Positions 5,601 to 9,483 of a DNA stretch of 64,000 bases are shown piece by piece. The translations under genes and the position numbers were made by a program. A model generated the notes under the pieces. It was not told the DNA's origin and did not search any database. It was given only the letters and a program-made list of their open reading frames with translations. Each line of letters opens with the position of its first letter. Position 1 is the first letter of the stretch. This DNA comes from Methanococcoides sp. AM1 (GTDB taxonomy: Archaea > Halobacteriota > Methanosarcinia > Methanosarcinales > Methanosarcinaceae), in assembly GCF_900774055.1 (NCBI RefSeq), contig NZ_CAAGSW010000005.1:248001-312000 (forward strand), read 5' to 3'.

Positions 5601-7415
5601 TCACACTGCATCATCAAGTCTAAGTCTTGGAGCAACTCCCAGAGATTTGATCTCATCAAGGAGCAACTTGAAAGCATAGCTCATTTCTACCGGGTGAATA
5701 TCTGTTTCTGCACCACAGTTCGAACAGTACCTTATGTTACGTGTTCTGTCAAAGGTAGCAACCATTCCACAGTGACCGCATACAAGCTCGACAACCTTGT
5801 CAGATTCATCAAGCAACCTTTCCTTCAGGGTCATTGCAGCACCGTGTCCGATCAGTACATCTCTTTCCATTTCACCAAACCTCAGACCACCCTCACGAGC
5901 ACGTCCTTCTGTTGGCTGGCGGGTCAATACCTGTACAGGACCTCTGGACCTGGCATGTATCTTTGATGCGACCATGTGATGCAGTTTCTGGTAAAGGATC
6001 ACACCTACGAAAACATCTGCCTGGATCTTCTTTCCGGTTACACCATCAGAGAATACTTCCTTTCCTGTGTGTGAGAAACCGTGTTTCTTCAGACCATCGC
6101 GGATGTCATCCTCGGTCTCACCTGAGAAAGCAGTTGCGTTAATGCGATGACCTTCGATACAACCTACCTTGCCTCCGATCATTTCAAGAACGTGAGCGAC
6201 AGTCATACGTGAAGGGATCGCGTGTGGATTAATAACAAGATCAGGAACCATACCACCTTCAGTGAATGGCATATCCTGATATGGAACTATCAGACCGATA
6301 ACTCCTTTCTGACCGTGTCTTGATGCGAATTTATCACCGATCTCAGGAATCCTCTGATCCCTTATCTTAACCTTTGTAAGACGGGTTCCATTAATGGACT
6401 CAGTAAGAATAACGGTGTCCACGATACCTTTCTCGTTGGAACGCATGGTAATTGCACTTTCCCTGCGCTGCTCAACAGTTATACCGAAATCAGACTGCTC
6501 CTCAAGGAACCTTGGAGGACTTGTCTTTCCGATAAGCACAGCATTTGGACCTACAATGGTCTCAGGGTTTACGAGACCGTCAATATCAAGGTTTGCATAT
6601 GCGTCTGCACTACGAGCGCCTCTGAACTCAGAGTCGGGTATCTCGAACTTGTCTTCCTGACCACCAGGATAGCGGCGTTCTTCTCCCTCGAATGTTCTCA
6701 GGAAGTGGCTTCTTCCAAGACCTCTCTGAATAGAACCTTTGTTAAAGACAAGTGCATCCTCAATATTGTGACCTTCGTAGGACATAACGGCAACTACGAA
6801 GTTCTGTCCTGCAGGACGGTCATCAAAGTGAATTGAATCACATGTGTGAGTGCGTGTAAGTGCTTTTTGAGGGTAGTGGAGAACGTGTGCGCGTGTGTCC
6901 GGCCTAAGTTTGATGTTAGAAGTGGAAACTCCGATACACTGCTTGATCATCGCTGCACCCATTGTGTTCCTTGGAGAAGCATTGTGTTCCGGATATGGGA
7001 CCATACCGGTACAAATACCAAGGATCAGTGAAGGGTCGATCTCAAGATGGGTGTGATTTGGAGTAAGGTCTTCTTCGTAAAGACCAATGAAAGCATTCTC
7101 TTCTTCTTCAGCATCCAGATACTCAACACACCCCTGACTTACAAGATCAAGGAATGATATTTCACCAGCATTCAGTTTCTCTACATGTTCACCTGTGACC
7201 AGAGGAACACCATCTTCTACGACAATGACCGGCCTTCTGGCACGACCCATGTCTGAACTGATGATAACTTCATGAATGTCCTCGTAAAGAGTTACATTCA
7301 GCTGACTGGATAGCATGCCATTGCGACGCTGCTCCCTGATGTCTGCAACCAGTTCTACCGGGTTGTTATGTGTTCCGATAAGTTCCCCGTCAAGGAAGAC
7401 CTTTGCTTCAGTCAT
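5601..7415 (-). CDS. rpoB1: DNA-directed RNA polymerase subunit B' (C-terminal half of B)
   Basis: C-terminal half of the Rpb2 homologue, split from the N-terminal half as in methanogens; 604 aa. It contains the hybrid-binding and catalytic-support motifs [30 protein letters not shown] and [15 protein letters not shown]-terminal zinc ribbon CGHCG...CSNCG lies near residues 550-575. The ATG overlaps the B'' stop by 4 nt (ATGA-type) and GAGGAGG lies 9 nt upstream. It joins rpoA1 with an 11-nt gap. Confidence 0.98.
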
Positions 7416-9058
7416 TGAACAACCTCCTCTGGTTTATCATCGCCGATAGGATCAGCGTTCTCATCCATAATATCATGATATTCAACCTCTGGTTTTACAG
7501 TCTCTACAGGTGCTATATCAAGCTCTTCTGCATAGATCGCATCACCTGAGAAATCAAGCACTTTCTCAGGAACATATAGTTCAACAGGAACAACTCCAAC
7601 CCCATAAAGGATGTTCTTGATAGCATCAATCTCTTCAGCGCCTGTGGAGAGTTCGACCATCTGGGCAAAGTTCTTCACAAGACCACAGTTTGGACCTTCA
7701 GGAGTCTCTGACGGACAAAGACGACCCCACTGTGTTGGGTGCAGATCACGGGCCTCGAAGTGAGGCTGTGCTCTTGACAATGGTGAGATCACACGTCTTA
7801 AGTGAGACAGAGTGGAAATGTAGTCTGTACGGTCAAGCAACTGTGAAACACCACTTCTTCCGCCTACCCAGTTACCTGTGGCAAGAGGATGCTGCAGACG
7901 GTCAGTAAGTACATCTGCACGAACAAGAGTTGCTACGTTCAGTTCCCTGTTCCTCATATTCGCCCTCTCGAGCTGGTATTTAACATCGCGTGCAAGACGG
8001 TTGAATGCTACCCTGAACAGATCTTCCATCAGGTCACCTGTAAGTTTCAACCTCTTGTTAGAATAGTGATCCTTATCATCGCCAGCTCGCCTTCCAAGTG
8101 CAAGTTCGAAGCATGATTCCGCCATCCTTCCAAGGAAGTGGGCTTTTGCGATCCGGTCTGCAGGATCGTTACCCAGATGTGGGAGCAGATAACGGTCAAT
8201 TACGTAATTTGCACGCTTCATCTGGTATTCCCTTGCCTGGCCTGAAGCAACACGGCCACCGATCTTCTCGATAGCATCCTCGATGGTGTCCACTTCAGCT
8301 TCCTCAAGGTTCTCGAACATGAACTTCATGATCTCCTGGTCGGTAGAAACCACCTTTACAACATCCTCATCGGTCTCAATTCCAAGAGCACGTATCAATG
8401 TGATGAAGTTTATACGACCGGATATGGATGGGAAAGAAACTTCCAACAGGGATTTACGCCCTCTTTCCACAACTACCAGAGCCCTGTAGCCCCTCCTCTG
8501 AGAGAATACTTTTGCAACCTCGATAGTATCACCATAACGCTCACCGAACTCGGCAAGTATCTTATTAGGTGCAAGGTCCTCGAGGGTCATTACAACACGC
8601 TCGGTACCATTTACTATGAAATATCCTCCGGGATCGAGCGGATCTTCACCATGTTGGATCATTTCAGCGTCATTTATGCCAACAAGATTACAGATATCCG
8701 ATTTGATCATTACAGGAAGCTGACCGATCTTGGCTTCCCTTGGTTCCTGCTCCTCACCATTCTGTACAACAGACATCTCCAGGAAAAGGGGAGCTGAGTA
8801 AGAAAGATTACGTAACCTTCCTTCATTTGGATACAATTTCTCAATTGCACCGTCAGCTTCCTTAACTACCGGATTTTCCACCCTTATCTTACCAAGCTTT
8901 ACATAGATATCTTCAAGATCTGTCTCGATTATACCTTGCTCATCAATGATCTTCTGGAGACCAGATTTGGTGAACTTGTTGTAAGAGTCAATGTGATGCT
9001 GCACAATCTTGTCCTTTGTGAAATAGGCCTCTGATAGTATGCTTGTATCTAATGCGAT
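7412..9058 (-). CDS. rpoB2: DNA-directed RNA polymerase subunit B'' (N-terminal half of B); non-canonical start
   Basis: N-terminal half of the Rpb2 homologue (protrusion, lobe and fork): motifs [30 protein letters not shown] and [21 protein letters not shown] are present. The first conventional in-frame start is a GTG at 9002-9004, but the open frame continues upstream for 18-19 more codons with convincing RpoB'' sequence ([17 protein letters not shown], then [10 protein letters not shown]). It meets a stop (TAA at 9074-9076) without any ATG, GTG or TTG. GAGGGTG (complement of 9064-9070) precedes two ATC codons at 9059-9061 and 9056-9058. I infer initiation at an ATC; the alternatives are a GTG start giving a trimmed protein, or a sequence error. 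The C-terminus overlaps rpoB1. Confidence 0.93.
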
Positions 9059-9084
9059 GATAGCACCCTCTTTTTAGTTAATTG

Positions 9085-9093
9085 GATATTTAA
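9085..9093 (-). promoter_or_regulatory. Possible TATA box upstream of rpoB2
   Basis: On the minus strand this reads TTAAATATC, an archaeal TATA-like element about 30 nt before the proposed ATC start of rpoB2. If it is used, transcription would begin within a few bases of the coding frame. It lies in the 190-nt spacer after rpoH, so rpoB2 could have its own promoter besides read-through from rpoH. Confidence 0.35.
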
Positions 9094-9157
9094 GAGTAAT
9101 AAAGCGATTATGATCAGTAGTAGCGTTCAATGGAATGAACACAGTATTGACTAGACC

Positions 9158-9193
9158 GGCCGTAATATAGGAAATGTGTATTATACTGCGGCC
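9158..9193. promoter_or_regulatory. Imperfect hairpin in the rpoH-rpoB'' spacer
   Basis: GGCCGTAATATA at 9158-9169 pairs imperfectly with TATACTGCGGCC at 9182-9193 (two mismatches), with a 12-nt loop. On the transcribed (minus) strand the hairpin is preceded by a run of seven T. It lies between rpoH and rpoB2 and may be a terminator/attenuator or a protein-binding site. The function is inferred only from position. Confidence 0.4.
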
Positions 9194-9246
9194 AAAAAAA
9201 GTACGTGAAAAATAAACGAAATGTCTCAAATTTGAAAACCTCGTGT

Positions 9247-9483
9247 TCACTCTATTACATATCTGTAATACAGTGCTTCACCTGCAGTCTGACTTTTGCG
9301 AGTGATCTTAACAACATCACCAGGCATCGCATCGATCTCCTGTGCAATAGGATCTGTTACTTTTAATTTCGGCAACTGCTCCCTCTCTACATTAAAGTGC
9401 TTCAGGACAGTCCTTAATTCATCCTCGTCCATTATCTCATGATTGGGGATCAATTCGTGGTCAAGCAGGCTGAACTTACTCAA
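9247..9483 (-). CDS. rpoH: DNA-directed RNA polymerase subunit H
   Basis: Archaeal RpoH, homologous to the C-terminal domain of eukaryotic Rpb5; 78 aa, the normal size. Conserved regions are LLDHELIPNHEIMDEDE, then LPKLKVTDPIAQEI and GDVVKITRKSQTAGEALYYR. The start is a TTG at 9481-9483 preceded by AAGGAGG with good spacing. It is the first protein gene of the RNA polymerase operon and lies 45 nt downstream of a tRNA-Lys gene on the same strand. Confidence 0.97.
   Translation of the reverse strand: MSKFSLLDHELIPNHEIMDEDELRTVLKHFNVEREQLPKLKVTDPIAQEIDAMPGDVVKITRKSQTAGEALYYRYVIE

Follow-up and report, generated by a model that had tools for sequence, protein, structure and literature searches.

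A putative AUC start codon in the RNA polymerase gene rpoB'' of Methanococcoides, with AUC, AUA or AUU at the same site across Methanosarcinaceae

We identified an apparent near-cognate start codon in rpoB'', the gene for RNA polymerase subunit B'' (Rpo2N), within the window, a 64,000-nucleotide stretch of DNA placed in Methanococcoides by its named relatives. The gene lies on the minus strand and very probably begins at the second of two adjacent ATC codons (9058-9056), from which it would extend to a TGA stop (7412-9058). A near-cognate start at this site would be retained across Methanosarcinaceae as AUC, AUA or AUU. The explanation as a whole, in which an AUC start is combined with weak initiation setting the RpoB'' and RpoB' level and with exposure to discrimination by aIF1, is one to which we assign a probability of roughly 0.8.

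Read 5' to 3' on the minus strand, the region opens with an in-frame stop, TAA (9076-9074), followed by AAA GAG GGT GCT, ATC (9061-9059), ATC (9058-9056) and GCA TTA GAT ACA AGC, and continues through ATA CTA TCA GAG GCC TAT TTC ACA AAG GAC AAG ATT to GTG (9004-9002). The rpoB'' frame holds no ATG, GTG or TTG between the TAA and this GTG; in relatives an upstream in-frame stop is also close, at a position that varies. A Shine-Dalgarno-like motif, GAGGGTG, lies at 9070-9064, and its RRGGTG portion is kept in most of Methanosarcinaceae. Pairing with the 16S tail AUCACCUCCU, which was located in the same genome, was calculated at -6.8 kcal/mol for the AUC, next to a median of -6.6 for the genes of the contig, and RNA folding at the start was ordinary (z of 0.19 over 101 nt and -1.68 over 46 nt).

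The protein read from the second ATC was matched in a profile search by the NCBIfam model for RpoB'' (NF007175) with 858.9 bits against a cut-off of 355, residues 4-492 aligning with model positions 3-491 of 496. This places it in the RpoB''/Rpo2N family, and Pfam Rpb2 domains 1, 2 and 3 are present as well. The alignment with solved archaeal RpoB chains begins at residue 5 of the same protein, so that the 18 codons ahead of GTG 9004-9002 encode RpoB''-like residues. The first-pass annotation, made from the sequence alone, had described about 18 family-like codons between this GTG and the upstream stop, and both the family model and the solved chains bear it out.

To place the start, we compared 112 genomes of Methanosarcinaceae, comprising same-genus relatives, named isolates and metagenome-assembled genomes (MAGs), of which four without an rpoB'' N-terminus were left out, leaving 108 readable. 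A Shine-Dalgarno sequence, an AT(C/A/T) codon (ATH) at the correct distance from it and a codon for a small residue (Ala, Thr or Val) occur at the same spot in 101 of these; counted from the listed rows, the start codon is ATC in 57, ATA in 33 and ATT in 11. ATG, GTG or TTG occupies the start codon in none of the 108, and the seven genomes without ATH are six from one genus (g14) and a single MAG (G131). A 20-base pattern that allowed any third base in the AT? codon matched 89 of the 112 genomes, and most of the others were read separately; the pattern also matched ATG, only at other loci. For the subset of loci read individually, the reading frame was verified at each one; elsewhere the 20-base match stands in for the frame.

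Among 53 distinct sequences, the second ATC never departs from A and T at its first two bases, and from this codon onward the variation falls at third codon positions. Without exception in the family, the residue after ATH is Ala, Thr or Val. The codon before it reads ATC, ACC, ACT, AGC, AAC, ATT, AGT or ACG, and because of this drift we assign the start to the second ATC and reject the first (9061-9059). The observation that only ATC codons are suitably spaced from GAGGGTG thus stands with respect to an ATC start, although the first of the pair, which is not conserved as ATH, is unfit. Position -3, the first A of the 9061-9059 codon, is invariant in the same 53 sequences while the rest of that codon drifts.

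The first in-frame canonical codon falls at +1, +2, +4, +7, +16, +18, +29, +54, +63 or +94, depending on species, and because of this scatter no canonical codon could act as the start throughout the family. Together with the minus-strand sequence, this family-wide pattern confirms that rpoB'' is without a usable ATG, GTG or TTG start. The internal GTG at 9004-9002 (Val of KIV) is the earliest point at which standard gene finders can place a start in this species, and if initiation occurred there the upstream similarity would be a relic. We consider this very improbable, since the position reads GTA or GTT in many genera, its Shine-Dalgarno pairing is weak (-3.7 kcal/mol), the codons upstream of it vary mainly at third positions, and initiation there would delete residues conserved in archaeal RpoB and in Pol II/III RPB2-type chains. 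Moreover, in Methanolobus the first canonical codon may lie 54-94 codons inside rpoB''.

A sequencing or assembly error that masks a normal start is a general possibility when a single sequence is considered, and was one of two alternatives raised in the first-pass annotation. Independent isolate genomes and MAGs, drawn from most genera of the family, carry ATC, ATA or ATT at this site, and an error is therefore excluded for practical purposes. The other alternative, initiation at AUC, gains strong support from the same conservation: in the comparison with sister species that had been proposed as a check, the Shine-Dalgarno sequence and ATH codon recur together and are never replaced there by ATG, GTG or TTG.

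We also considered entry of ribosomes from upstream by readthrough or frameshifting, whether from rpoH, from the GTG of the Shine-Dalgarno sequence in its other frame, or from a 58-amino-acid frame at 9074-9250. This frame shares bases with the rpoH stop and terminates at the very TAA that precedes rpoB'' in frame, and a GTG does lie within the Shine-Dalgarno motif. However, a one-base difference separates sister species between the TAA and the gene (AACTAAAAAGAG versus AACTAAAAGAG), so that the relative frame is not preserved; whether the short GTG frame is open or closed depends on the genus; and an Rfam search of the start region returned only a tRNA and, below threshold, a match to the same stretch. 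Such entry is accordingly a slim prospect. The rpoH gene itself (Rpo5; 9247-9483, minus strand), upstream of rpoB'', has a TTG start behind a strong Shine-Dalgarno sequence, GGAGG, and most family loci read share this TTG, so that rpoB'' is not the only gene of the operon with a weaker start.

Sister families, including ANME-2, Methanoperedens and others, have an ATG or GTG start one codon downstream of the ATH site, which suggests that in Methanosarcinaceae the old start became the small residue and that initiation shifted one codon upstream to AUH. Genus g14, which we take to be a Methanomethylovorans-like genus, retains a relic of the start site (GGTGTAATCATC), which an in-frame TAA cuts off from the gene in two species. 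A new GTG, preceded by a separate Shine-Dalgarno sequence (GAGGGCAGTAAAGTG), lies 7 codons downstream of the relic. This appears to be a natural replacement, in which the AUH start was lost and a canonical one gained, the outcome to be expected if the rest of the family initiates at AUH. In three of five genomes of genus g10, in the g9 genome and in G131, an in-frame GTG lies just upstream, inside the Shine-Dalgarno sequence. In g10 loci L035, L187 and L188, a 1-base insertion brings this GTG into frame 3 codons before the ATT, and loci L036 and L189 of the same genus keep the ATT but lack this GTG. The AUH codon of G131 (L179) is lost by a 2-base deletion, leaving ACG or the in-frame GTG inside the Shine-Dalgarno sequence; G131 is a MAG, and its deletion may be an error. 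Methanohalophilus has TTG at +2 and genus g5 has GTG at +1, either of which could act as a start there.

Beyond these families, Methanoculleus and its relatives (L147-L160, L162, L163 and L117-L122) carry GGGAGCTGATCCAT CTG TTAGAC at the rpoB'' start, and rpoB'' of Methanoculleus appears to start at this CUG, a near-cognate codon of seemingly independent origin. Where these have CTG, others have ATG or TTG, and among other Methanomicrobiales TTG is found at or near the same place. The sister-order starts (Methanothrix TTG, ANME-2 GTG and Methanoculleus CTG) resemble the AUH start in that the same gene is repeatedly given a codon weaker than AUG; they differ in that GTG and TTG are canonical in archaea, whereas AUH was seen only in Methanosarcinaceae.

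In the mechanism that we propose, the GAGGGTG Shine-Dalgarno sequence would position the ribosome at AUC 9058-9056, where the ordinary initiator Met-tRNA would read the codon by its first two base pairs, two of three bases. The protein would begin (M)ALDTS, with Met probably removed, since the family without exception has Ala, Thr or Val as residue 2; these residues at that position suit methionine aminopeptidase. Weak initiation at AUC would set a low level of RpoB'', and this low level would be passed to RpoB' through a 4-nt ATGA stop-start overlap (7412-7415, minus strand) that is common in relatives and likely couples translation of the two genes. The rpoB' stop likewise overlaps the open frame of rpoA' by 4 nt (GTGA; 5601-5604, minus strand), at what may be the rpoA' start. 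In Haloferax, genes joined by stop-start overlaps are translationally coupled, and such overlaps occur preferentially among the subunits of complexes (PMC10666635). If the overlapping rpoB' and rpoA' starts are coupled in this way, the amounts of the large subunits would be governed by the weak first start. Because near-cognate starts are weak and rpoB' overlaps the rpoB'' stop, it is plausible that the polymerase level is limited by the AUC start.

The weak start may also expose the operon to start-codon discrimination by aIF1, and in Sulfolobus aIF1 favours discrimination against noncanonical starts (PMC6237735). The aIF1 gene starts at ATG in the relatives examined, so that the discriminating factor's own gene lacks the near-cognate start of infC-type autoregulation and no infC-like self-regulation loop is evident. 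In E. coli such codons are very weak, initiation at AUU amounting to about 0.3% of that at AUG (Hecht et al., as cited in PMC10666635). This is low for an abundant enzyme, and archaeal tolerance or some other feature must be assumed. A purpose of throttling RpoB'' and the overlapping rpoB' and rpoA' genes, subject to aIF1 discrimination, is put forward tentatively, at somewhat short of even odds.

It is possible, if on balance rather doubtful, that AUH is a real but neutral start, which arose once in the family ancestor and has been kept by a good Shine-Dalgarno sequence and context with no regulation. The ordinary strength of the Shine-Dalgarno pairing is consistent with this, as is the move of one lineage to GTG without obvious harm. 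The absence of G from the wobble base also fits drift: none of 82 invariant four-fold sites lacks G when the tree is disregarded, a test that looked strong, but in tree-aware neutral simulations with 5-7 changes the wobble base lacks G in about 20% of runs, which is not significant (p of about 0.2). Conversely, a single point mutation would create AUG at each of these sites, yet AUG occurs in none of the 101 genomes, and published start switches run mostly toward AUG, those from GUG or UUG to AUG being far commoner than the reverse and AUG to AUU accounting for 1 in 61,358 (PMC5622118). Selection against AUG at the rpoB'' start is suggested by these comparisons.

To see how unusual such a start is, all 371 kb of the window's contig were compared with the corresponding part of a sister species' genome. 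Of the 231 genes covered, rpoB'' and carS were the only ones with, in our judgement, a convincing conserved coding N-terminus ahead of every ATG, GTG and TTG, the remaining rows of the survey looking like conserved leader and not coding. This rarity, and the recurrence of the rpoB'' pattern in 101 family genomes, speak against chance. The carS-like gene, presumably for CDP-archaeol synthase as named from its sequence, lies outside the window (L212:1468-1470; contig C5, approximately 149316-149318, plus strand) and begins GAGTTGAT AAC ACG ATC GAG. ACG stands at the homologous place in 21 of the 23 family loci read and ATG in two sister families, and in this genus no canonical codon comes before the Met of the conserved motif WLMLPAY; carS therefore seems to start at a family-conserved ACG. 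More broadly, one could imagine a small set of Methanosarcinaceae genes, including rpoB'' with AUH and carS with ACG, whose starts are deliberately weak, such that aIF1 stringency sets the supply of polymerase and the overlaps pass it on to RpoB' and RpoA', with the CUG of Methanomicrobiales arising independently. We regard this extended proposal as unlikely.

Weak start signals of this near-cognate kind are known from only a few bacterial genes, among which infC and Streptomyces sigR are the closest analogues of the rpoB'' start. In E. coli infC, which encodes IF3, a near-cognate AUU follows a Shine-Dalgarno sequence and has been kept by evolution in an essential gene, and an ATC start is given for Streptomyces infC (Butler 1987, as cited in PMC5472188). 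infC differs in that it encodes the discriminating factor and regulates itself, whereas rpoB'' encodes an archaeal polymerase subunit and aIF1 replaces IF3. The sigR gene is a striking parallel: it too belongs to the transcription machinery, the wobble base is the one variable position of its noncanonical start, its ribosome-binding site is conserved and the next gene is coupled to it. Its GUC or GUU start is repressed by IF3 and reads GTC in 32 and GTT in 2 of 34 species (PMC5472188). Unlike rpoB'', an essential core subunit across an archaeal family whose start is predicted from sequence, sigR is a bacterial stress sigma factor with an experimentally proven start. Non-AUG starts conserved in plant chloroplasts are similarly weak starts that have been kept, and are proposed to tune protein supply, though psbC is a case of GUG in an organelle (PMC9845219). 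Neither an archaeal AUC, AUA or AUU start nor a report on the rpoB'' start was found in the open-access literature searched.

Gene finders allow ATG, GTG and TTG, and the N-terminus of RpoB'' is consequently probably misannotated throughout a large and well-studied family of methanogens. Public ribosome profiling and proteomics data from M. mazei would allow the AUC start to be tested, and one such Ribo-seq data set exists as GSE240615 (PMC11456600). If confirmed, it would represent a family-wide archaeal AUC, AUA or AUU start in the gene of a core enzyme, and would offer a natural reporter of start-codon choice by archaeal ribosomes and aIF1.
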